A stretch of DNA of 64,000 nucleotides from NCBI GenBank assembly GCA_913058185.1, contig CAJXQX010000007.1, forward strand, positions 1-64,000, given 5' to 3'. Origin of the DNA: an uncultured Verrucomicrobiota bacterium (lineage in GTDB: Bacteria > Verrucomicrobiota > Verrucomicrobiia > Opitutales > Opitutaceae). The position numbers and the translations under genes are program-made. The notes beneath the pieces are model-generated. The model ran no database searches. It saw nothing but the letters and a program-made list of their open reading frames with translations, and was not told the DNA's origin. Shown in pieces: positions 9,531-35,986 of this stretch. The stretch's first letter is position 1. Each line of letters starts with the position of its first letter.

Positions 9531-9953
9531 ATGGCTAAAAAAGCTTCCCGTCCTGCTTCTCCTCTGACCTTCGACCTGCCGGTTTCGTTGATCGAAAAGA
9601 TCACCACCGCGCAAACCAAGCTCGGCTTGGCATCCACCAGTGAGGTGGTTCGTCTCGCCCTGGCTAAGTTCAATTTCGATCGGTTCGAGTCTTCCCGTGA
9701 AGAACATCGTCAGATCTCCGTGCGTCTTCCGGCCGATATGAAGACCCTCCTTTCGCGCCAATCACGGAAGAAAAAGGTCAGTGTTGGCGAGCTGCTTCGC
9801 GCATCGCTCGACGAATTGTCCACGGCCAAGCCCGTCGCTAGGCCTAAAGTGGCCAAGGGTAAGAAGAAGGTGAAGCCAGCGGCCAAGAAGCCAGCCAAGA
9901 GAGCCGTTAAAAAGGTGGTCAAGAAGACCGCCAAAAAAGCCAAACGCAGATAA
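9531..9953 (+). CDS. Tandem ribbon-helix-helix DNA-binding protein with histone-H1-like Lys/Ala tail
   Basis: 140 residues in three parts. Residues about 11-50 (LTFDLPVSLIEKI, TSEVVRLALAKF) look like one ribbon-helix-helix unit, and residues about 60-95 (QISVRLPADMKTLLSR, VSVGELLRASLDEL) like a second, so one chain may form the whole RHH pair. Residues about 97-140 are almost only Lys, Ala, Val, Pro and Arg, with repeated AKK and KKVVKK motifs as in eukaryotic H1 and bacterial H1-like proteins. This suggests a nucleoid-associated protein or an unusual regulator. It has its own strong terminators and no close partner. The RHH reading is pattern recognition, not a search result. Confidence 0.75.
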   Translation: MAKKASRPASPLTFDLPVSLIEKITTAQTKLGLASTSEVVRLALAKFNFDRFESSREEHRQISVRLPADMKTLLSRQSRKKKVSVGELLRASLDELSTAKPVARPKVAKGKKKVKPAAKKPAKRAVKKVVKKTAKKAKRR

Positions 9954-9968
9954 GCGGTTCCAAAATCG

Positions 9969-9995
9969 CCCCGGTGAACGGGGTCTGATTTTTAA
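9969..9995 (+). terminator. First terminator behind the RHH/H1-like gene
   Basis: Stem CCCCG (9969-9973) with CGGGG (9979-9983), five-base loop, followed by TCTGATTTTT. A short but T-tailed intrinsic terminator. Confidence 0.6.
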
Positions 9996-9998
9996 TTC

Positions 9999-10038
9999 AA
10001 AGCAAGCTACCGTCCAGCGGGGCTTGCTTTTCGTTTTT
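9999..10038 (+). terminator. Second, stronger terminator behind the RHH/H1-like gene
   Basis: Stem AAAGCAAGC (9999-10007) with GCTTGCTTT (10022-10030), 14-base loop, then TCGTTTTT. Because both arms carry the A/T ends, it could work in both directions. Two terminators in a row isolate this gene from the aminotransferase behind it. Confidence 0.75.
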
Positions 10039-10067
10039 GAGGGGACTTAGGTCGACTCGTTTTGACT

Positions 10068-11255
10068 ATGAGCCAAGTACCTGCGTCACTCTCTTCCTGG
10101 GCCCTTAACGTATCGACATCTCCCACGTTGGCGGTTGATGCCAAAGCCAAGGCACTTAAAGCCGCCGGCGAGGACGTTTGCGGATTCGCCGCTGGTGAAC
10201 CCGATTTCGATACGCCGGCCCACATCAAGGCCGCCGCGGTGCAGGCCTTGGGTGCCGGAAAGACGAAATACGCCCCGACTCCGGGTATCCCGCCGTTGCG
10301 TGAAGCGCTGGCCGCGAAGTACACTGACACTTATGGCCTGCCGACCACGGCGGCTCAGGTGGTGGTGAGCCCCGGCGGCAAATTCTCATGCTATCTCACG
10401 GTATTGGCGATTTGCTCGCCAGGGGACGAAGTGATCGTGCCGGCACCTTACTGGGTGAGCTATCCTGAGATGGTTAAGTTGGCTGGGGCGACGCCGAAGA
10501 CGGTCCTCGCGACCGATGCGACGGGATTTAAACTCACTCCGGAAATGCTGGAAGCGGCGATCACGCCGAAATCGAAGCTCTTGATTCTCAATTCACCGTC
10601 CAACCCAACCGGAGCGGTTTATACCGCGGCTGAATTGGGGACACTCACGGCCGTAGCGGTGAAGCATAATCTCTACATTATGTCCGACGAGATCTATGAG
10701 CATTTGCTCTATGACGGCGTGAAACATGTTTCTCCGGCGTCATTCTCGGATGAGGCGCGTGAGCGCACGATCATCGTATCGGGTTTTGCCAAGACCTTCG
10801 CGATGACCGGCTGGCGTCTGGGCACCATCGTGGCTGCGGAACCGATCGCCAAAGCGGTGGCCAAGTTGCAGAGCCAAACGACCTCCAATGCGACGACGTT
10901 TGCTCAGTGGGGCTCGTTGGCGGCTTACACCGAAGCCGATAAGACCAAGGTCGCACTCGACGAGATGTTAGTCGCATTCGACCGCCGTCGTAAGTTGGTG
11001 CACTCAGGCCTCAACGCCATTGACGGCATCGAGTGTCTGTTGGCGCAGGGCGCGTTCTACCTCTTTCCGAATATTTCGAGCTTCGGCCTCGACGATCTCA
11101 CTTTCTGCGAACGGCTGCTCGATGAGCAAAAGGTCGCAGCCGTGCCGGGCTCCGCGTTTGGTGCGCCAGGATTTATGCGCATCAGTTATGCGACTGCCGA
11201 TGAGACCTTGAACAAAGGACTCGATCGACTCGGGAAGTTCTGCGCCGGGCTTTAA
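10068..11255 (+). CDS. Aspartate aminotransferase-type class I/II aminotransferase
   Basis: 395-residue PLP enzyme of fold type I, subgroup I-gamma by motifs. It would transfer the amino group between aspartate (or a related amino acid) and 2-oxoglutarate. It shows the substrate-loop [12 protein letters not shown], the [11 protein letters not shown] segment, the PLP-ring Asp/Tyr region [12 protein letters not shown] and the Schiff-base Lys in [16 protein letters not shown]. The C-terminal Arg of FMRISYAT binds the alpha-carboxylate. ATG 10068 is chosen over the in-frame TTG two codons upstream. Exact specificity (aspartate, aromatic or prephenate) is not decided by what I can see. Confidence 0.9.
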
Positions 11256-24907: not shown

Positions 24908-25564
24908 ATGTCGCATCTATTCCCAAAATTGGCCAACCGCTTGCCGCTCCAGATCATCATCTTTCTCGTCGTCGCTGGCGGGATCGTGACGGCAGCAGTC
25001 AACTATTACGCTACACCCAAATACACCCGGGTAGGCTACGCACCCATTCAGCCGGTGCCGTTCAGCCATGCGCTGCACAATGGCGACCTCGGCATCGACT
25101 GTCGTTTCTGCCACTCCACCGTGGAAAAAGCGGGTCACGCGGCAGTCCCCACGTCTCAGACGTGTATGAACTGCCACAGCCAGGTGAAGAACCAGAGTGC
25201 GCTACTCGCGCCGATCCGCGCCAGTTACGAATCCGGTGATTCGGTCGAGTGGGTGAGAGTTCACCAAGCGCCTGATTACGTCTATTTCGACCATGCGGTT
25301 CACGTGAATCGTGGTGTCTCCTGTGTGGAGTGTCACGGTCAGGTCAACGAGATGGAGGTCGTCACCCACAGCAAACCACTCTCCATGGGCTTCTGTTTGG
25401 ATTGCCACCGCGATCCCGCCCCGAGCCTTCGCGACCCGAAGCTCGTGACCCAACTCGATTGGGAACATCCTGAGGGTAAGGCCGGCCAACGCGCCGACGG
25501 CGAAAAGTTCATTCACGACTGGAATATCAATCCTCCCCAGAGCTGCACTGGCTGCCACCGATGA
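24908..25564 (+). CDS. actA: Alternative complex III subunit ActA, pentahaem cytochrome c
   Basis: 218-residue membrane-anchored cytochrome. One N-terminal transmembrane segment (residues about 15-35) is followed by five CxxCH haem sites: CRFCH, CMNCH, CVECH, CLDCH and CTGCH. Five haems is the number known for ActA of alternative complex III, which oxidises quinol and passes electrons to periplasmic carriers. It overlaps actB by four bases (ATGA at 25561). First certain gene of the operon 24908-35986. Confidence 0.92.
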   Translation: MSHLFPKLANRLPLQIIIFLVVAGGIVTAAVNYYATPKYTRVGYAPIQPVPFSHALHNGDLGIDCRFCHSTVEKAGHAAVPTSQTCMNCHSQVKNQSALLAPIRASYESGDSVEWVRVHQAPDYVYFDHAVHVNRGVSCVECHGQVNEMEVVTHSKPLSMGFCLDCHRDPAPSLRDPKLVTQLDWEHPEGKAGQRADGEKFIHDWNINPPQSCTGCHR

Positions 25565-28500
25565 AACGCAAAGTTGAACATCCCGAACCCTCCGCCCGTG
25601 AGCTGAGTGGTCCCCGCTACTGGCGCAGCCTCGATGAATTGGTGGAAACTCCCGGTTTTCAGGCAAAGATCGCCAAAGAATTCCCAACGGGTGCTGACAA
25701 CCTGAATGGCGTCGACCGTCGTTCGTTTTTCAAGCTGATGGCCGCTTCCTTTGCCTTGGGTGGCATGGGTCTCGCCACCGGTTGCCGTCGTCCCGAAGCC
25801 AATATCCTGCCTTACGGCAAATCGGTTGAAGGTGTCATCCCCGGCATGCCGCAATATTTCGCAACATCGTTCCCATTGCGTGGTGCGGCGCTGCCGCTTT
25901 TGGCCGAGACTCATTCAGGACGTCCGACCAAACTCGAGGGTAACCCTTCCTACACTCCATACGGAGGATCATCTTCCTTAGTCGCTCAGGCCTCTTTGTT
26001 GGATCTCTACGATCCGGACCGTGCTACCACGCACACCGTCGACGGAGCTGCCGTTACATCAGCGATCATCCGCGATCAACTCGCTGCGATTCACTCCGCA
26101 GCCAAAGGGATGCGCGGTGCGGGTCTGGCCATCTTGGCCGAGACCTCTTCTTCGCCAAGTCGGGCCCGTCTCGTCAAAGCGCTGAAGCAGAAACTGCCGC
26201 AAGCTATCTGGGCCGAATACGACGCCGTAAACGACACCCCTCCCGCCGCTGCCGCCGAGGCTGCCTTTGGCCGGAACGTTAAACCCCTTTATCATTTCGA
26301 CAAAGCCTCCCGGGTTGTCGCGATTGATGCTGATTTCTTCCACGCCGAATCCGGCGCCTTAGGTTACGCTCGCGATTTCGCGAAGGGCCGCAAGGTGATG
26401 AAGAAGGACGATCCTATGAACCGCCTCTACTCGGTAGAGAGCACGTTCACGCTGACCGGATCGATGGCGGATCACCGCCTCCGTCTCGCCAGTAGCCACA
26501 TGTTGGCCTTCGTCGCCGCTTTGGGTCAGAAATTGACCGGGGATTCCCGCTTCGCTCAATTCTCCAAAGGTCTCGAGTTTAAGGATCAGGACGCTTGGGT
26601 CTCAGCCTGTGCCGAGGATCTCAAGAACCACCGCGGCGATTGTGTTCTCGTTGCTGGCTCCCATCTCCCGGCTGAAGTCCACGCGATCGTTTACGTCTTG
26701 AATCTGTTCCTCGAGAACGTGGGCACGACCGTCGATTTCGTGGAAATTCCAGAGAACAACTCTGCTTCACTCGCCGATCTCGCCGCCGCAGCTAAGTCCG
26801 GTAAAGTCGATACCCTCGTGGTGCTCGGCGGAAACCCGGTTTACAACGCCCCCGCTGATCTCGATTTCGCAGGAATCGCCGGAGCGGTCGATAACGTGGT
26901 TCGCTACGGTTATTATGTCGATGAGACCTCGGCCCTGGCTTCGACCAACATCGCCGCCACGCATTACCTCGAATCTTGGGGTGATGCTCGCACCGCAGAT
27001 GGCACCGTCGTTCCGGTGCAACCCATGATTTTGCCGCTCTTCGACGGTTTGACCGAACTCGAAGTCGTGGCGCACCTTGCTGGTGAATCGACGACCGATC
27101 CTTATACGATCTCACTTGAAACCATCGGCAAGATTGGTCGAGGCGACGCCGAGGCGACGTTCCGCAAATTCCTGCATGACGGCATCCTTGCCGGTTCAGC
27201 TTACCGCGCGACCAAAGTAAAATATAACGAGAGCGGATTGATTAGTCTCCTTGGTAACAGCTCGAGCCCGAGCGGTCTTTCCAAGGATAATCTCGAGGTT
27301 CGCTTCACCATCGATCACAAGATCGACGACGGTCGCTTCGCCAACAACGGTTGGCTCCAAGAGTGTCCCGACCCGATCACCAAGATCTCATGGGATAACG
27401 CCATTTTGGTCAGCCCACGTCTCGGTGCTGCACTCGGTATCGATCCCGATGGAGCTGCTATCCAAGTGGCCCGCAAAGAGCTCGCCAATTACCCGCAGGG
27501 TAAAGAGGCCGCCCACATCGGTGAACTCACCGTCAACGGCATCACGGTCAAGGGACCGATGCACATCCAACCTGGACTCTCCAACTGGACGGTTGTTCTG
27601 CCCCTTGGATACGGTCGCGAAGTTAGCGGCCGGGTAGGGCAGGGAGCTGGACACAATTTTTATCCGGCCCGCACGACGGGTGGTTTCGATGTCGCCACCG
27701 GTGCGACCCTCAAAACAACCGGAGAGATCTTCCTCCTCGCGAATCAACAAGAGCATTGGTCGATGGAGGGCCGCGACATCGTTCGTGAAGCCAACTATTC
27801 GGGCAAAGACAGTTACCAAGAGAATCCCAACTTCGTGGATTCCTTCGGTATCGAATCGCATGCCCCGTCCAATCTAGGACCGGACAGCGATATGTCGTTG
27901 GCTGACATCGCATCGACTACTCCTCGGGGTAATTCGCTTTACGAGACTCCAGATTTTAAAGGCATTCACCAATGGGGAATGTCGATCGACTTGAACACCT
28001 GCATCGGCTGCAACGCCTGTGTGATCGCGTGTCAGGCTGAGAACAATATCCCGATCGTGGGCAAGGAACAGGTCATGCGCGGTCGCGAGATGCACTGGAT
28101 CCGGCTCGATCGTTATTACTCCGACGGAAAGATTTCGGCTGGAGCATTCGGTGGCCCTGATAACAAGACCATCCCCGAGGATCCGCAGGCATCTCTCATG
28201 CCGGTGGCTTGCGCCCAATGTGAGCTCGCCCCGTGTGAAACCGTTTGCCCGGTCAACGCCACGGTGCATGACGAAGAAGGTCTCAACACCATGGCTTACA
28301 ACCGTTGTATCGGCACGCGTTACTGCGCGAATAACTGCCCTTACAAGGTTCGCCGCTTCAACTTCTTTGACTGGAACGACCGTTCTCTAGATGAGCTCTA
28401 TATGGGACCTCTTAGCGAGAAGGGTATGCCTGAACTCGTCGCGATGTCGAAGAATCCAGATGTCACCGTCCGGATGCGGGGTGTGATGGAAAAGTGCACC

Positions 28501-28962
28501 TACTGCACGCAGCGGATTCAGCAGGCCAAGATTTCTCAAAAGGTGAAAGCCCGTGACTCAGCCGATGTGGTGATCCCCGATGGCACCATCAAGGTCGCTT
28601 GTCAGCAGGTCTGCCCGGTTGATGCGATTGAGTTCGGTAACATCAAGGATCCTGAAAGCGCCGTTTCGAAGGCGAAGGCCCGCGAACAAGATTACGCATT
28701 GTTGGGTTACCTCAATATTCGCCCTCGCACCACTTACCTCGGCAAGCTTCGGAATCCAAATCCGAAGATGCCGGACTACGCAGCGCTGCCTCTCAGCCGC
28801 GTTGAGTATAACACTAAGAACCATCCCGCCGGCCATGACAGTGGCCACGGAGATTCGCATGGCGACAGTCATGATGATTCCCACGGCGACGATCGCCACG
28901 GTGAATCTGAAGGCCACACCTCGATCATGAAGAACGCCCTGCGCACAGGAGGGTTGAGCTAA
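25561..28962 (+). CDS. actB: Alternative complex III subunit ActB, molybdopterin-oxidoreductase-like/Fe-S fusion
   Basis: 1133 residues. It starts with a short conserved motif ([12 protein letters not shown]), then a Tat-like signal [16 protein letters not shown] and a lipobox-like ATGC, then a long domain related to molybdopterin oxidoreductases (ActB proteins bind no molybdenum), and last a ferredoxin domain with clusters built by [44 protein letters not shown] and CQQVCPVD. The C-terminus has a His/Asp/Gly-rich stretch ([16 protein letters not shown]), possibly metal-binding. It overlaps actC by one base (TAATG). Confidence 0.93.
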
Positions 28963-30383
28963 TGTCACACTCTGATTCCAGCGGGGCACAGCCCGCCATC
29001 CTCAGTGAAGTAGATCCTATCGATTTCCCTCGGGCGACCTTGGTCGAGAACGATCGCAGTTTCGATTGGATCACCGATAAGATCTGCGGAATTATCGAAG
29101 GTAAGACTCCCACTTGGTGGTGGGTTTGTTTCGCCCTCGCTTGTTTCGTCGCCACCTGGACGGTCGCTGGCATCACCTATCTGGTCGCCACCGGCGTCGG
29201 AGTTTGGGGCCACGCGAATCCGGTTAACTGGGCGTGGGATATCGTCAACTTCGTGTTCTGGATTGGTATCGGTCACGCCGGCACCTTGATCTCAGCGATT
29301 CTCTGTTTGCTCCGTCAAAAATGGCGGACGTCGATTAATCGCGCAGCGGAAGCGATGACGATTTTCGCGGTTGTTTGTGCCGGTATTTTCCCGGTGTTCC
29401 ATGTCGGTCGCGTTTGGTTCGCTTGGTATCTCTTTCCCATCCCGAATTCCAACTACCTGTGGCAGAACTTTCGTTCACCGCTCGAATGGGATGTGTTTGC
29501 GGTTTCGACCTACGGCACCGTTTCGGTGCTCTTCTGGTATGTCGGTTTGATTCCTGATTTGGCGATCCTTCGCGATCGTTTCTACAAGGCAGGCAATAAA
29601 ACCCGCTCCTTCCTTTACGGCTTCTTCGCCATGGGCTGGCGGGGCGCCAATCGCCACTGGAGTAACTACGAGATGGCCTACTTGATACTCGCGGGTGTCT
29701 CCACGCCACTCGTGCTATCGGTGCATACCATCGTTTCGTTCGACTTTGCGGTGTCTCTCCTCCCGGGGTGGCACACCACGATCTTCCCGCCTTACTTTGT
29801 GGCCGGTGCGATCTTCTCCGGCTTCGGCATGGTGCTCACGCTCATGTTGCCGCTGCGGGCAATCTACAAGTTGGAGGATCTGATCACGCAGTATCACATC
29901 GACTGCATGTGTAAGATCACTTTGGCGACGGGAACCATCGTGGGTTATGCCTACGGCATGGAGTTCTTCATCGCTTGGTATGGCTCCAATCCTTACGAGG
30001 GTTTCGCCTTCATCAACCGGGCATTTGGTCACTACGCCTGGGCTTACTGGATCATGATTTCCTGTAACGTGATCACGCCGCAGTTCTTCTGGTTCAAGGC
30101 GGTCCGCGAAAACACTGCGTTCGTTTGGATCCTCTCGATTTTCGTGAACGTCGGCATGTGGTTCGAACGCTTCGTGATTATCGTCACTTCACTGGCCCGT
30201 GACTTCCTGCCTTCCAGCTGGGGTTACTACAGCCCGTCCATTGTGGAAATCTTCACGTTCTTCGGCACCTTTGGGGTGTTCAGCGTGTTGTTCCTCCTCT
30301 TCATCCGTTTCTTGCCCATCATGCCGATGGCGGAAATCAAGGCGGTTACTCCCCAAGGTGATCCGCATCACGGCGCTCACTAA
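28962..30383 (+). CDS. actC: Alternative complex III subunit ActC, NrfD-type quinol-binding membrane protein
   Basis: 473-residue integral membrane protein with about ten transmembrane segments of the NrfD/PsrC family. It is expected to hold the quinol site and proton path. Typical segments are [40 protein letters not shown] and [19 protein letters not shown]. Coupled to actB by an overlapping start. ActF later in the operon is its homologue. Confidence 0.93.
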
Positions 30384-30410: not shown

Positions 30411-30938
30411 ATGGCTGCTTCAACACATGGCTTAATTGCTACCTTCGATACTGCTGCTGATATCTATCACGCGGCGGAGAAGGTGCGCGATGCTGGCTTC
30501 ACTAACTGGGACTGCATCACGCCGTGCCCCGTGCACGGTCTGGACGGTGCAATGGGCGTAAAGCGTTCTAAAGTTCCTCGTATATCTCTCGCGGGTGGCA
30601 TCACTGGTTTCATCACCGGTATGTCGATGATCTATTTCACCGGCGCGGTGGACTACCCCCTCATCGTCGGCGGCAAGCCACTCTTCAGTCCGATGTTTGC
30701 GTTTCCCGTCGCTTACGAGTTGACCATTCTTTTTACGGCGTTCGCTACCATTGGTGGTATGCTCATTCTGAACGGACTGCCGATGCACTACCATCCGGTG
30801 CTTAAGACCGACCACATTCACCGTGGTTTGGACGATAAGTTCCTGATCGTGATCGAGTCTTCCGATCCGAATTACGACAGTGCGAAAGCACTGCTCGAAT
30901 CCGCCGGCGGCACTGAAATCACCGAAATCGAGTCCTAG
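30411..30938 (+). CDS. actD: Alternative complex III subunit ActD (DUF3341)
   Basis: 175-residue membrane protein with two transmembrane segments. It matches DUF3341: GLIATFDTAADIYHAAEKVRD at the start, WDCITPCPVHGLDGAMG, then two hydrophobic hairpins (ISLAGGITGFITGMSMIY; YELTILFTAFATIGGMLI) and the C-terminal ferredoxin-like FLIVIESSDPNYDSAKALLE. It stabilises the complex in known structures. Gap of 27 bases behind actC. Confidence 0.92.
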   Translation: MAASTHGLIATFDTAADIYHAAEKVRDAGFTNWDCITPCPVHGLDGAMGVKRSKVPRISLAGGITGFITGMSMIYFTGAVDYPLIVGGKPLFSPMFAFPVAYELTILFTAFATIGGMLILNGLPMHYHPVLKTDHIHRGLDDKFLIVIESSDPNYDSAKALLESAGGTEITEIES

Positions 30939-30942
30939 CCCG

Positions 30943-31557
30943 ATGCGTTACGTATATCTCGTTCTCTTCTTTGTCGCGGTCTTGGCCGTTGGAGCCCTTG
31001 GGTTCCGTGGCTCCATTTCCACGCGACCACCTTTGGAGGTCTTTCCGGACATGGATCGCCAGTCCAAGTATCTTCCTCAAGCAGCCTCTTCGTTCTTTGC
31101 AGACGGACGCACTGACCGTCCGATCCCAGCCGGCACGGTTGCTCGTGGAAATCTCCGATCAGATGCTCACCTAAATTTCGGCCGAGGCCCGGAGGGCGAA
31201 TTTGCCCCAGGGTTTCCTGATGGATTGACGATTGATCGTCAGTTCTTCGACCGTGGTCGCGAGCGCTACGAAATCTACTGTGCTCCTTGTCACGGTAAGT
31301 TGGCCAATGGTCGTGGTATCGTCACCCAATACGGGTGGGGTGGACCGGCCAATATGCACCAGGATTTGATCCGTGATCAATCCAATGGCGAACTATTCAA
31401 TACCATCACCAACGGTAAGAACACGATGTTCCCGTTGAGTGATAAAATCGGTGCGGAAGATCGTTGGGCGGTTATCGCTTACGTCCGCGCTCTCCAGCGT
31501 TCCCAAAACGGCCGCATGCAAGACGTGCCGGCTTCACATCAAGGGGAGTTGAACTGA
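30943..31557 (+). CDS. actE: Alternative complex III subunit ActE, monohaem cytochrome c
   Basis: 204-residue membrane-bound cytochrome. N-terminal anchor (residues 2-20), then a conserved PPLEVFPDMDRQSKYLPQ and one haem site CAPCH with a probable Met ligand in NTMFPLSDKI. The start at 30943 is four bases behind the actD stop. It serves as electron exit towards other c haems, presumably the CcoO-like and CcoP-like cytochromes further down. Confidence 0.92.
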   Translation: MRYVYLVLFFVAVLAVGALGFRGSISTRPPLEVFPDMDRQSKYLPQAASSFFADGRTDRPIPAGTVARGNLRSDAHLNFGRGPEGEFAPGFPDGLTIDRQFFDRGRERYEIYCAPCHGKLANGRGIVTQYGWGGPANMHQDLIRDQSNGELFNTITNGKNTMFPLSDKIGAEDRWAVIAYVRALQRSQNGRMQDVPASHQGELN

Positions 31558-31559
31558 CC

Positions 31560-32831
31560 ATGGCATCCTCCACGACTGCAAATTCCGCTACGGCGGCTCC
31601 TAGCAATCCGGCGGGCAAGGCCCTCACCATCGGAATCGTCGGCATTGTGCTTACGATCTTAGGCATCTTTGTTTCCGGAGGTGACAAGGTCGCTTTCGCT
31701 TGGCTCACGGCCATGACGTTTTGGACTGGATTGGCGATCGGCATGCTGATGCTGATCATGATTCACCACATCGTTGATGCGAATTGGTCGACGGTGATTC
31801 GTCGCCAGTTTGAGCACGGTATCGCTGCCTTCAAATGGTTAGCACTGCTCTTTGTCCCTCTGATTGTGGCATCCATCATTGAGCCCAGTATCCTGTGGAA
31901 GTATTTTGATCCTTCCTTTGATTTATCTAGGGTGGGCGGTCACGGCACGGTGGCCAGTGATGTGCTTTGGCAAAAGAAATCGGGATTGTTGAGCTTCGAG
32001 TTTTTCATGGTTCTGACCACGATTTCATTCGGTGGTTGGATGCTGCTATCCAATCGCTTTCGCCGCTGCTCGTTCTCTCAAGATATGGACGGAGATATCA
32101 AGTGGACGCGGAAGAGCCGTTTTTGGTCGGCCATCGGTTTGCCGTTTATGGCCGTCACGCTTTCTCTTTGTGTGATCCTTTGGGTTAAAGCCCTCGATTA
32201 TCACTGGTTCTCTACGATGTTCGGCGTCTGGTATTTCGCTGAGTGTGTCCGCGGCGCTTTGGCTGTTGGTGTCTTGATGATGTGCTGGCTCACCACCCGG
32301 GGGGATTACCAGGGTGTGCTCACGAAAAACCATTGGTATTCCATCGGTATGCTCTCGTTCGCCTTCACGGTGTTCTGGGCCTACGTCACGTTCTCCCAAT
32401 ATTTCCTGATCTGGAATGCGAATATCCCGGAAGAAACCTTCTGGTATAACATCCGCGAAATTCAAAACAGCAGCGGTGAGCCCAACCAATGGAAGTGGGT
32501 CGGCATGCTGCTTCTCTTCGGTCATTTCTTCGTCCCATTTTTCGGCCTCATCAGCTATCCAGCTAAGATCAGCAAGTGGTGGATGAAGCTCATGGCTTCG
32601 TGGATCATCTTAATCATTCTGATCGACATCATCTACAACGTCTGGCCGTCCAAAAAGGATTCATTGGGTGATCCGATTGCCTTTGCCGGCCTGCACATGA
32701 TTTGGACCCTGACCGCCGTAATCGGCGTCGGAGGCATCTGCGCTTGGGCCTACTTTAAAAGTTTCCCCACCGCTAAACTCATCCCGATTCGCGATCCTCG
32801 CATCGGAGAATCTCTGACTTACCATGAGTAA
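31560..32831 (+). CDS. actF: Alternative complex III subunit ActF, second NrfD-like membrane protein
   Basis: 423-residue membrane protein with about ten transmembrane segments, homologous to ActC but shorter, as known for complex III. Segments include FWTGLAIGMLMLIMIHHIVD and LFGHFFVPFFGLISYPAKIS. The start at 31560 is directly behind the actE stop. The next gene overlaps its last eight bases. Confidence 0.9.
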   Translation: MASSTTANSATAAPSNPAGKALTIGIVGIVLTILGIFVSGGDKVAFAWLTAMTFWTGLAIGMLMLIMIHHIVDANWSTVIRRQFEHGIAAFKWLALLFVPLIVASIIEPSILWKYFDPSFDLSRVGGHGTVASDVLWQKKSGLLSFEFFMVLTTISFGGWMLLSNRFRRCSFSQDMDGDIKWTRKSRFWSAIGLPFMAVTLSLCVILWVKALDYHWFSTMFGVWYFAECVRGALAVGVLMMCWLTTRGDYQGVLTKNHWYSIGMLSFAFTVFWAYVTFSQYFLIWNANIPEETFWYNIREIQNSSGEPNQWKWVGMLLLFGHFFVPFFGLISYPAKISKWWMKLMASWIILIILIDIIYNVWPSKKDSLGDPIAFAGLHMIWTLTAVIGVGGICAWAYFKSFPTAKLIPIRDPRIGESLTYHE

Positions 32832-33144
32832 TTCCTCTTCAGCTCCTCAACCTGTGCTGTGGCCATTGATAGTGGCGGTCATGGGCGTTTTCGCGATCTT
32901 TTTGGTGATTGTGAATCTTGCGCGCACTCCGGTCACGCCCATCACCGCAGCCGTCAATGTTCCCGAGGAAGAGCAATGGAAACTGAGCTCTACCACGCGC
33001 CAAGAACGACGCGCCGAACTTGAAGGGGAGGCCAAATCCGCTGCTACCAGCTACGGCTGGATTAATCAAAATGACGGTATCGTCCGTCTGCCAGTCGAGC
33101 GCGCCATCGAATTAACGTTGGCTGACATTAACGCTGATCGCTGA
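32824..33144 (+). CDS. Small membrane protein linking complex III and oxidase-like genes
   Basis: 106 residues: one transmembrane segment (residues about 12-32), a charged coiled-coil-like middle (QERRAELEGEAKSAA), and the C-terminal YGWINQNDGIVRLPVERAIE. That last motif occurs in many small proteins beside quinol-oxidising complexes and cytochrome oxidases, usually as YGWVDxxxGIVRIPIDRAM. It overlaps actF by eight bases, so it is part of the operon. It may correspond to the small extra subunit or assembly factor of complex III. I cannot tell which. Confidence 0.75.
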   Translation: MSNSSSAPQPVLWPLIVAVMGVFAIFLVIVNLARTPVTPITAAVNVPEEEQWKLSSTTRQERRAELEGEAKSAATSYGWINQNDGIVRLPVERAIELTLADINADR

Positions 33145-33196
33145 ACAATTGATCATTTGCCGGCATTCTTCGCCGGTCACTTTGCCGTAAACCACG

Positions 33197-34663
33197 ATGG
33201 ATTCAAATTCCAGTAACACCCCAGCCACCGCCGAACGTCCAGATTCGGCGGTCATTGACGCCTCTATTAAAGTGCCGGTGCTTTTCTTCCTCTACGCCGC
33301 TGCGGCGTGGTTGGTCACCGCCTCCGTGCTCGGTTTCATCGCCGCGGCGCAGTTGGTTCAACCCGCATTTCTCGCTGATTACGCTTGGACGACCCACGGT
33401 CGCATCGTGCCACTGGCGCGGAACGCCCTCATTTATGGTTGGGGATTTAATGCCGCTTTTGCGGTGTTGATCTGGATGGTGGCCCGACTCTGCCGAACGC
33501 CTGCCCCGAAGTGGGGCACGACTTTGGTCGGAGGCCTATTCTGGAATGTCGGAATTAAATTAGGCCTGACCGGAATCATCATCGGACAATCGACCGGGCA
33601 CGTCCTGCTAGAGATGCCTGGTTATGCGGCCGCCGTCATGTTTGTTTCCTACGGAATCATTGGAGCCGGGGTTGCCATCATCTTTTCGCGTCGCCGCGAG
33701 GGCAGTATGTTTGCCAGCCAATGGTATGGTCTGACCGCTTTGTTTTGGTTCCCTTGGTTGTTCACCATTGCGCAATACACCTTGGTCTTTGGCTCGATGC
33801 GCGGAACCGCGCAAGCGGTGGCCTCTGCATGGTATGGTCATAATATTTACGCCTTGTTCCTCGGCCCCATCGCGTTGGGAGCCCTCTACTATCTTATCCC
33901 GAAGCGGGTAGGGCGCCCGATCACCAACTATCCGTTGGCTCAAATCGGCTTTTGGTCGTTCGTATTTTTCGGATCCTTCGGAGGTCTCGCGACTCTCGTC
34001 GGAAGTCCAGTGCCCGCCTGGGTGCAGACCGTGGGAGTTTCTTCGAATTTCATGCTTTTGATTCCGTTGTTCGCCATCGCCGTCAATCTTGGCGGAGCGC
34101 TGCTCGGTGGAACAAAGGCTGGGGGCTCGGGACCGGCGCTGAAGTTCTTCAAGTTATCCTTGGTTTCCTTCATTATCGTGGGACTGCTTACGGTCGTGCT
34201 TTCGCTGCCATCGTTCAGCCACACGATCGGATTAACTTTCGTGGGTGAAGCCTTAGACATCCTCCACTGGTATGCCTTTGTTTCCTTCGCATTCTTCGGC
34301 GCGATTTACTTCATGCTGCCCCGTTTGATTGTTCAACCTTGGCCATCAGGCGCGCTGATTACCGCTCACTTCTGGGCCACGGTAGCCGGCACGATCATCG
34401 TGATTTCCAGTCTCTTCTTGGCGGGCTTCGCGCAGGGGGCGGCGCTTAACGATATCGAAAACTACGCCACCTTTGCCGACGTGATGGGAGCTTTTTCAGG
34501 ATACCTCGTCGCCCTCGCGTTTGGTTATCTTACTTTGCTGGTCGGTAGCCTCGCATTTTTCGTGAATGTGGTGATGGCGATTTACCAAGCTTGTTTCTCT
34601 AAATCGACCGCATCGGCCGATACCGTTTTTGGCTCTCCCGCAGCCATGGAGGTGAACTCATGA
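33197..34663 (+). CDS. CcoN-like haem-copper oxidase subunit I homologue lacking haem and copper ligands
   Basis: 488-residue protein with about twelve transmembrane segments, clearly related to CcoN of cbb3 oxidases along its length: WTTHGRIVPLARNALIYGWG, SAWYGHNIYALFLGP, YYLIPKRVGRPITNYPL and FFGAIYFMLPRLI. By comparison with remembered CcoN sequences, the haem b ligand in PLHTNA is PLARNA (Ala74), the copper pair GPHHLHY is LATLVG (Ala265, Thr266), and the HVH pair holding both haems has become ALDILH. Only WYGHN (His215) is kept. It probably binds no haem or Cu and cannot reduce oxygen. It may be a scaffold for the cytochromes encoded next. The next gene overlaps by four bases. Confidence 0.85.
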   Translation: MDSNSSNTPATAERPDSAVIDASIKVPVLFFLYAAAAWLVTASVLGFIAAAQLVQPAFLADYAWTTHGRIVPLARNALIYGWGFNAAFAVLIWMVARLCRTPAPKWGTTLVGGLFWNVGIKLGLTGIIIGQSTGHVLLEMPGYAAAVMFVSYGIIGAGVAIIFSRRREGSMFASQWYGLTALFWFPWLFTIAQYTLVFGSMRGTAQAVASAWYGHNIYALFLGPIALGALYYLIPKRVGRPITNYPLAQIGFWSFVFFGSFGGLATLVGSPVPAWVQTVGVSSNFMLLIPLFAIAVNLGGALLGGTKAGGSGPALKFFKLSLVSFIIVGLLTVVLSLPSFSHTIGLTFVGEALDILHWYAFVSFAFFGAIYFMLPRLIVQPWPSGALITAHFWATVAGTIIVISSLFLAGFAQGAALNDIENYATFADVMGAFSGYLVALAFGYLTLLVGSLAFFVNVVMAIYQACFSKSTASADTVFGSPAAMEVNS

Positions 34664-35313
34664 ACCGTGGACCGTATCTTTTTCTCGGCGCTTTCGCGAT
34701 CCTCGCCTTCTCCTGGACGGCAGCGATCCTAGCCAACCAACTTGGTTATGGTGCGGTGACCCCGCACTACGATTCCCTGGCGGGACAAGCGTTTCCAGCC
34801 AAGCATCCCGGCATCGTCGAACGGGGTGCGCAAGTCTACACCGATCTCGGTTGTGTGACCTGCCACACCCAGCAGGTGCGCCGGGCGGACATAGGTAGTG
34901 ATCTCGCCCGCGGGTGGGGTGAACGCGCCAGTGTTGGCCGTGATTACATGCACGAAAGCACGGTTCAGCTCGGCTCCAATCGTTTCGGTCCGGACCTTCG
35001 TAATGTGGGCGCTCGGATTGAAGACCCCAACGTTTTCTACCAGATGTTATACGCGCCAGCTGAAGACTCCGCGATGCCCGCTTACCGATTCCTTTTCGAT
35101 GAGGTTAAGGTTGTTGGCCAAGTCTCCGATGACGCGCTGAATCTCGATGCGCCGACGGGATATCAGATCGTGCCAACCGAACGAGCGCGTTCCTTGGTTG
35201 CTTACCTCGCTTACCGGAACGACACCTACGCCTATCCGGAAACCAATTTTGTTCCAACCGAGCCCGAAGCTGAATCCGACGATGAAGCTGCGGAAACGGA
35301 GGAAGGGCACTAA
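34660..35313 (+). CDS. CcoO-like membrane-anchored monohaem cytochrome c
   Basis: 217 residues. An N-terminal transmembrane anchor is followed by a CcoO-type domain with GAQVYTDLGCVTCHTQQVRR (haem site CVTCH), GWGERASVGRDYM, RFGPDLRNVGAR and the Met ligand in SAMPAYRFLF. The acidic tail (DDEAAETEEGH) is unusual. In cbb3 oxidases CcoO feeds electrons to CcoN. Here its CcoN-like partner appears to lack redox centres. The ATGA overlap with the previous gene argues for a fixed partnership. Confidence 0.88.
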   Translation: MNRGPYLFLGAFAILAFSWTAAILANQLGYGAVTPHYDSLAGQAFPAKHPGIVERGAQVYTDLGCVTCHTQQVRRADIGSDLARGWGERASVGRDYMHESTVQLGSNRFGPDLRNVGARIEDPNVFYQMLYAPAEDSAMPAYRFLFDEVKVVGQVSDDALNLDAPTGYQIVPTERARSLVAYLAYRNDTYAYPETNFVPTEPEAESDDEAAETEEGH

Positions 35314-35314
35314 G

Positions 35315-35986
35315 ATGAGCCAAGACGCCAATTCCGATCCACGTCTGGAAGTTTCCGCTGCTTCCGACCAAGACATTCAAGCCGTGCATGCTTCATTGCT
35401 GCACGACCAAAAGGAACCCAAGGAGGGCTTTTCTTTGATGCCCCTATTTGTCTTGGGCTTCGTTTCGTCCATGATCTTTGTGGTCGCGATTTACTTTATC
35501 CACAACCGCGCTGGCTTGTCCGATGGACTCGCGTTGGCGACCACGATTCATCACCCCGGATACGATCCCCAAGTTCATGGTGCCGGAGATGAAGAAGTTG
35601 AAATCGATGTGTTTGCCGTTGGTCAGAGTCTCTACGGACAAGCTTGTATTGCCTGCCACCAGGTTAACGGCCAAGGCATCCCCTCGGCCTTTCCTCCGTT
35701 GGCTAGTTCAGACTGGGTGACTGGCGACGAAGAAAGACTCATCAAGCTAGTTTTACATGGCTTGCAAGGACCACTCGAGGTGAATGGGGCGCAGTATAAT
35801 GGAATCATGCCCGCGTTTGGACCTTCTGGAATCTACCAGTGGAGTGATGAAAAGATCGCCTACGTGCTTACCTATATCCGCCAAGAGTGGGGTAATGAAG
35901 CTGGGGAAATCACCCCTGACCAAGTGACCGCAGTTAAGGAAGCCACCGCTTCTCAAACCGGAGCTTACACGGCGGCCGATCTGTAA
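35315..35986 (+). CDS. Membrane-bound class I cytochrome c (CcoP-like position)
   Basis: 223 residues: an N-terminal cytosolic part, one transmembrane segment (FVLGFVSSMIFVVAIYFI), then one cytochrome c domain with CIACHQVNGQGIPSAFPPL and the Met ligand in NGIMPAFGPSG. It takes the place of ccoP but has one haem rather than two. Start 35315 lies one base behind the stop of the ccoO-like gene. It is the last gene before the terminator at 36014. It could hand electrons to an oxidase encoded elsewhere. Confidence 0.88.
   Translation: MSQDANSDPRLEVSAASDQDIQAVHASLLHDQKEPKEGFSLMPLFVLGFVSSMIFVVAIYFIHNRAGLSDGLALATTIHHPGYDPQVHGAGDEEVEIDVFAVGQSLYGQACIACHQVNGQGIPSAFPPLASSDWVTGDEERLIKLVLHGLQGPLEVNGAQYNGIMPAFGPSGIYQWSDEKIAYVLTYIRQEWGNEAGEITPDQVTAVKEATASQTGAYTAADL

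Follow-up and report, generated by a model that had tools for sequence, protein, structure and literature searches.

The gene at 33197-34663 on the forward strand of the window (by which we mean the whole stretch of DNA analysed here, 64,000 nucleotides) encodes a whole oxidase core without metal ligands. Metal sites are what define a haem-copper oxidase core, and this one, a homologue of the cbb3 oxidase subunit CcoN, is part of an operon for alternative complex III (ACIII). We think it probable that the locus once encoded an ACIII-cbb3 oxidase and that its core is now a cofactor-free scaffold, holding two c cytochromes that relay electrons from ACIII to a caa3 oxidase. The fold and the operon are already known; what is new, as far as we found, is the selected and repeated loss of a catalytic core. 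The genes of the locus are as follows.

24908-25564, forward: actA, multihaem cytochrome c of ACIII (Cytochrome_C7, 2.4e-13; QrcA-like, 2.1e-21)
25561-28962, forward: actB, molybdopterin-like and FeS subunit of ACIII (QrcC-like, 1.4e-50)
28962-30383, forward: actC, NrfD-like membrane subunit (NrfD, 8.1e-24)
30411-30938, forward: actD (ActD, 6.2e-61)
30943-31557, forward: actE, mono-haem cytochrome c (Cytochrome_CBB3, 2e-11; internal ATG start, longest ORF 30880-31557)
31560-32831, forward: actF (position and BLAST conservation; internal ATG start, longest ORF 31464-32831)
32824-33144, forward: small protein, distinct from ccoS, in which one hydrophobic stretch is visible by eye (no family match)
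33145-33196, forward: 52-bp gap at the site of the ccoS-like gene of intact relatives, with none here (gap comparison)
33197-34663, forward: ligand-less CcoN-like protein, a pseudo-oxidase core (Pfam, PDB matches, alignment, AF2)
34660-35313, forward: ccoO-like mono-haem cytochrome c, CxxCH present (FixO, 8.8e-14)
35315-35986, forward: mono-haem cytochrome c in the ccoP position (Cytochrom_C, 1.2e-12; internal ATG start, longest ORF 35147-35986)

A CcoN fold without its ligands

The reading frame at 33197-34663 runs from an ATG start over 488 amino acids with zero internal stops, and the start of the ccoO-like frame overlaps it by 4 bases. The ORF coordinates thereby confirm the intact 488-codon frame and the four-base overlap given in a preliminary description of this DNA. 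Residues 28-443 of the protein matched Pfam COX1 (E 5e-37) at 128 bits, against a cut-off of 34.8, and the top PDB sequence matches were both cbb3 CcoN (8smr_E, 4.3e-33; 3mk7_A, 1.8e-32). In the alignment with 3mk7 chain A, residues H60, H207, Y251, H257, H258, H345 and H347 correspond to A, H, G, A, T, L and I of the window protein. We take these seven to be the haem b, haem b3 and CuB ligands together with the cross-link Tyr. One of the six cofactor His is left (H215 in the window protein, equivalent to H207), and the cross-link Tyr is replaced by Gly.

Built on 64 aligned window and locus sequences, the AF2 model of the protein has a mean pLDDT of 91.0 and a pTM of 0.92. It superposed on 3mk7_D with a Z of 47.7 and an rmsd of 1.9 Å over 446 residues at 23% identity, and the first NorB (4xyd_A) fitted more poorly, with a Z of 41.8. 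The preliminary description had claimed homology to CcoN across the full length and near-total loss of haem and copper ligands. Both claims survived the comparison with 3mk7: the predicted structure is a CcoN fold, and in the sequence alignment five of the six His and the Tyr are missing, with H215 retained. One caveat is His H357, which lies two residues beyond the H347 position and is found in 4/4 sequences of the window clade. The ligand residues were paired from sequence alignments with 3mk7, and the superposition output carries no residue pairs; since the model superposes on 3mk7_D, a gross helix shift is not concealing the ligands, and a shifted alignment that masks them is disfavoured. 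A local sequence error was ruled out because three near relatives, 84, 69 and 67% identical to the window protein, share the ligand loss, and 110 further ligand-less rows lie beyond this clade.

The protein thus has the CcoN fold of a catalytic cbb3 oxidase and lacks its six-His set and Tyr251. When the window protein alone was scored against TIGR00780, it reached 131.2 bits, under the equivalog cut-off of 583.15 bits. A nitric oxide reductase (cNOR) was also considered and dropped: the NorB-type haem and FeB ligand His are absent, the NorB fit is weaker, and intact relatives keep Tyr251. Judged from the ligand loss, the window protein presumably binds no haem b or copper, and a Pfam COX1 match, at 128 bits here, does not imply an oxidase.

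The ACIII operon and its two cytochromes

The preliminary description placed the ligand-less core between ACIII and two c-type cytochromes, and the operon genes bear this out. All of actABCDEF precede it, ActF being recognised by position and BLAST since it gave zero Pfam or NCBIfam matches. The gene that follows encodes a CcoO-type mono-haem subunit by its FixO match and CxxCH. The cytochrome c at 35315-35986 has an N-terminal hydrophobic stretch (by eye) and one CxxCH rather than the two of a di-haem CcoP, and likewise one was found in 52/52 intact relatives. The small protein at 32824-33144 carries a C-terminal RLPVERAIELTL signature, and BLAST relatives of it precede ccoN in 20/37 intact loci and 60/87 ligand-less ones.

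Intact and ligand-less relatives

CcoN-like matches were found in 71/103 genomes of the order at E<=1e-10 (in G076 only through a true CcoN) and, at E<=1e-45, in 92/100 genomes of the family and 89/387 of the phylum. A named genome set yielded 21 loci with such matches, including Cupriavidus and a deltaproteobacterial MAG, and viral contigs held no homologues of the window protein. We aligned part of these matches in 179 rows, comprising 1 reference, 7 true CcoN anchors, 57 intact rows and 114 ligand-less rows with the window among them. All seven residues are present in 57 of the 171 family rows and not in the other 114; these rows are related, so that row counts do not equal independent events. 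Ligand loss is shared by homologues (114/171 rows), and most of the 57 homologous rows with all ligands stand in the same operon type as the ligand-less ones.

In the ligand-less rows, the number of His kept of six is 0 in 37 rows, 1 in 69, 2 in 5, 3 in 2 and 4 in 1, and neither the CuB triad nor Tyr251 is kept in any of the 114. H60 is kept in the f29/f33 group. In L193 and L197 (family f31), the low-spin haem pair H60/H347 alone is kept of the six His, possibly as a one-haem intermediate; together with L004, L011 and L204, these partial cases look like intermediates.

The operon context is shared by both classes. Where 8.2 kb or more of upstream sequence is available, the full set of six act genes precedes ccoN in 34/37 intact loci and 86/87 ligand-less ones, the exceptions being ligand-less L204 (no ActA-D), L096 (no ActA match), and L050 and L219 (none of the six). 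Downstream, ccoO is found in 43/43 intact and 92/92 ligand-less loci, and the cytochrome c in 41/43 and 92/92. Every ActD-bearing genome of the order (68 of 103) has a CcoN-like match, some partial or with an in-frame stop; in this sample, ACIII is therefore never seen without a CcoN-like gene. Genome G024 carries a ligand-less copy in its ACIII operon (L218) and an intact cousin elsewhere (L219) that has a ccoS-like gene and lacks ACIII in its upstream region. Genome G463 has two intact CcoN-like copies, one of which (L084, 1483-4428) lies in an unusually long stop-to-stop frame and is possibly a fusion. The intact outgroup relatives are L050 (Cupriavidus basilensis), with no ACIII match upstream, and L051 (the deltaproteobacterial MAG), where only about 5 kb upstream are covered.

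Haem c motifs persist in the partner subunits. CxxCH is present in CcoO of 110/111 ligand-less loci (the miss, L142, ends at a contig edge), in the cytochrome c of 109/109 and in ActE of 99/99, and the axial-type Met of the cytochrome c is kept in 107/109. In CcoO the axial-type Met is replaced by C, H, K or R in 23/110 ligand-less loci, replacements that are possibly changes of haem c ligand; with this Met lost in 23/110, the proposed electron relay is not uniformly preserved. A second CcoO Met is found in 93% of intact loci versus 10/110 ligand-less loci.

Loss of the ccoS-like gene

The ccoS-like gene disappears together with the cofactor ligands. Pfam FixS matched in 25/103 genomes of the order, each time just upstream of a CcoN-like gene; among classed genomes these were 23/30 with an intact row and 0/15 with ligand-less rows only, while G009 and G057 fall outside the classing. 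Seven of the 30 classed intact genomes are unmatched, and so are some true-CcoN genomes with all seven residues, e.g. G013 and G050, so that either the Pfam model overlooks some ccoS genes or ccoS is dispensable in places. With a profile made from four intact seeds, which matched 49/51 non-seed intact rows, a ccoS-like gene was found just upstream in 53/55 intact versus 2/109 ligand-less loci (Fisher p 5e-38, over related rows). The intact loci without a match are L050 and L051. The ligand-less loci with one are L176, where it has diverged, and L150 of the window's own genus, where the match is weak (E 5e-4).

The gap between the small gene and ccoN in the window clade measures 203 bp in L150, which has the ccoS-like frame, and 192 bp in L033, against 52 bp in the window and 47 bp in L031. 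The L033 gap is identical to that of L150 at 122/182 aligned bases, and is probably the remnant of a ccoS-like gene.

Repeated loss within the family

The ligands were lost repeatedly within the family. Our careful ccoN tree was built with ligand columns removed from 59/171 family rows (9 intact, 50 ligand-less), without the very long rows L208, L209, L225, L226 and L227 and most rows >58% identical to a chosen row, and needs at least 4 state changes; its bootstrap had not settled. Forcing the 50 ligand-less rows to be monophyletic was rejected (AU p 0.002), and with it a single ancestral loss. In the same tree, ligand-less L173 is nested among intact relatives of its family (100/99).

The neighbouring genes give larger numbers. 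A FastTree of ActB, ActC and ActF for 130/170 loci, in which L031 and L150 represent the window clade (the window row and L033 being absent), shows 17 changes and groups L031 and L150 with their intact congeners L152 and L153 (support 100). On the assumptions that ccoN moves together with ACIII and that lost ligands never return, this tree implies 22 losses, or 14-15 once forks <95% are collapsed. The tree of CcoO and the cytochrome c shows 13 changes. The ccoN tree partly conflicts with that of ACIII, and we think that long branches pull the ligand-less ccoN rows together; the stem of the window clade carries 4.52 changes per column.

Part of this pattern might instead reflect module swapping, in which a few older ligand-less ccoN genes passed between ACIII operons. 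We consider swapping rather unlikely as the overall explanation and a live rival for part of the tree pattern. It draws on the ccoN tree, which asks for only 4 changes, and on the mixed set with all groups, where joining the window clade to its intact congener was rejected (AU p 0.013). It also draws on L117 and L127 (genus g63), whose ACIII groups with Opitutus-type operons and whose CcoN groups with the QQ group, a real discordance suggesting exchange within the operon. When ligand-less groups were placed one at a time among intact rows with FastTree, three of them (the window group, f29/f33 and the QQ group) came out basal, outside Opitutaceae, and L177 went elsewhere. Against swapping, 9/15 groups in these runs joined the relatives named by the ACIII tree with support >=90 at the fork where they join or the one after it; two further groups did so weakly. 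Under a mixture model with distant rows removed, the window clade fell inside intact Opitutaceae (SH-aLRT 95) and its union with intact congeners was not rejected (p 0.444); in this reduced set the four window-clade rows were the sole ligand-less rows, and intact L050, L051, L195, L200, L202 and L219 were left out. Because the rejection vanished without the other ligand-less rows, we ascribe the p of 0.013 to long branches, which is our reading and not a proof. The ccoS-like remnant in place in L150, and probably in L033, also speaks against a transferred gene, and a single loss is rejected regardless of swapping (p 0.002).

Residual redox or transport function

Another alternative is that the protein still carries one haem or metal at a rearranged site and itself transfers electrons. 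H215 and H357 are conserved in 4/4 sequences of the window clade, and H60/H347 persist in the two f31 rows and H60 in f29/f33, as would be expected of such a protein. However, 37 rows lack all six His. Across the columns aligned to the window protein, with weighting over the 114 ligand-less rows, a His frequency above 0.35 occurs at just two window residues, 391 (0.91, also His in intact rows) and 54 (0.69, Val in the window). We regard a residual redox role as unlikely.

A transport or channel function, in which the helical bundle conducts protons or another solute, would explain why the helical membrane body is retained; it strikes us as improbable. The positions of Y317, S240 and T215, which presumably line the K-type proton path, are most often F, A and A in ligand-less rows. 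The listed newly conserved positions include a single charged residue, the Arg at position 25 of the window protein, which is Lys in the window itself and lies close to the N terminus, and none inside the bundle. Since the polar K-path positions change along with the ligands, the proton channel offered in the preliminary description is disfavoured, and of the roles named there a scaffold fits best.

Purifying selection

The gene is maintained, as had been proposed from its intact frame. Comparison of the window gene with its three kin gave an NG86 dN/dS of 0.036-0.12, with dS near saturation. The median is 0.157 over 79 ligand-less pairs versus 0.138 over 98 intact pairs; the pairs are not independent, and the intact pairs include true CcoN anchors. 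Among columns >=98% identical in the 57 intact rows, 59/93 non-cofactor columns and 0/7 cofactor columns are kept, that is, shared by at least half of the 114 ligand-less rows (Fisher p 0.0014). The lower diversity of the intact set (effective number 8 vs 50) inflates its conservation. Fifty positions are >=85% conserved in both classes. Also altered in ligand-less rows are E122, H337, R437, Y317, S240 and T215, which we take to be cofactor, calcium or proton-path residues. The pattern fits a protein released from redox chemistry and constrained for its fold and surfaces.

In-frame stops were found in the CcoN-like genes of two order genomes (G019, TAA; G086, TGA) and in no other CcoN-like row listed in the order, family and phylum searches. 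A decaying leftover, kept during slow decay solely by translational coupling to ccoO, would account for the missing cofactor sites and ccoS-like gene, the very long window-clade stem and these two stops, but is highly improbable given the dN/dS with the three kin (0.04-0.12) and over the ligand-less pairs, the 50 positions conserved in both classes and the absence of stops from the other listed rows.

Oxidases of the window's genome and a proposed electron route

In the window's own genome (4.09 Mb, 99% complete), COX1 matches occur in three places. One is an intact CoxA-type gene whose neighbour encodes a COX2 protein carrying a cytochrome c domain (caa3); the others are the window gene itself and a fragment on contig C56. 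The C56 locus (9813-10838, reverse strand) has a mono-haem cytochrome c gene, a COX1 fragment covering the first 100 positions only, and then a sulfatase gene; by eye, we read it as presumably norC and a broken, shortened norB. The genome gave no Cyt_bd_oxida_I (bd), Cytochrome_B (bc1) or FixS/CcoS (PF03597) match, and no second CcoN with the window protein as query at E<=0.001. With caa3 present and no cytochrome b, bd or true cbb3 detected, the one visible route of quinol electrons to O2 is, on this evidence, ACIII to caa3.

At least two COX1 matches were found in 67/67 classed ligand-less Opitutaceae genomes and in 19/20 intact ones, so that a further oxidase-type gene is at hand, as the relay model requires, but the count of second oxidases does not separate the classes. 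This count covers 87 (67 + 20) of the 100 family genomes, leaving out 8 without a CcoN-like match and the unclassed G477, G480, G503, G505 and G511. Two matches do not prove that ACIII has a second oxidase as its working partner, and a single gene may match twice in a draft genome.

Under the scaffold reading, the ancestral gene would have encoded the catalytic core of a cbb3-type oxygen reductase in a Verrucomicrobiota ACIII-cbb3 operon, with CcoN, CcoO and the mono-haem cytochrome c once physically part of ACIII. Another oxidase would then have assumed O2 reduction, leaving the metal sites dispensable. Here, and independently elsewhere, the locus would have lost the sites for haem b, haem b3, CuB and the cross-link Tyr, together with the ccoS-like gene; CcoO, the mono-haem cytochrome c and the helical body in the membrane would have been retained. 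We propose that the CcoN body is kept to hold the two cytochromes in position. The cofactor-free CcoN would dock CcoO and the cytochrome c against ACIII, and electrons would pass from menaquinol through ACIII (ActB/ActA/ActE) and the haems of CcoO and the cytochrome c to the cytochrome c domain of caa3, with the O2 chemistry at this separate oxidase. The loss of the ligands, its apparent repetition and the selection on the gene within the ACIII operon suggest that the protein is now a structural electron-wiring part, not an enzyme.

A wider version may hold for the phylum, and we put it forward tentatively, as a near-even prospect. In it, more than ten independent strippings in Verrucomicrobiota would each have left the core an obligate cofactor-free subunit of ACIII, with the cytochromes c as a wire to another oxidase, as a recurrent ratchet.

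Comparison with known systems

The window protein resembles cbb3 CcoN (3mk7, 8smr) in fold (Z 47.7), length and the adjoining CcoO-type mono-haem cytochrome c, but differs in its loss of five of six cofactor His and the cross-link Tyr and in its 23% identity; compared with a cbb3 operon, the locus has no ccoS nearby and a mono-haem third subunit. One report describes ACIII of Rhodothermus handing electrons directly to caa3, and ACIII clusters that often precede oxidase clusters (PMC5928083). The R. marinus ACIII-caa3 supercomplex described there is alike in that ACIII is coupled to an oxidase through c haems, but its partner oxidase is catalytic and the partner in the window operon has no metal ligands.

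Two further reports state that active cbb3 needs CcoS (PMC7558416) and that R. capsulatus mutants without CcoS have a cbb3 that is fully assembled yet inactive (PMC5742617). By analogy, the latter would be a precedent for an apo-CcoN that still assembles; both systems lack CcoS, but the R. capsulatus case is a laboratory mutant and the window protein is naturally fixed. We found neither a ligand-less CcoN nor an ACIII operon with such a gene described in the open-access literature, a restriction that makes this weak evidence of absence.

A large selected family without metal sites would be a pseudo-oxidase, and would show that oxidase subunits can be retained for architecture alone. Matched intact and ligand-less pairs within one genus would offer a natural test of why respiratory supercomplexes exist. 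A close comparison for the window is with the intact ACIII-linked relatives L152 and L153 of its genus, which have the same operon order, CcoO and mono-haem cytochrome c but, unlike the window, all six His, Tyr251 and a ccoS-like gene directly upstream. The window protein is 39-40% identical to these two.
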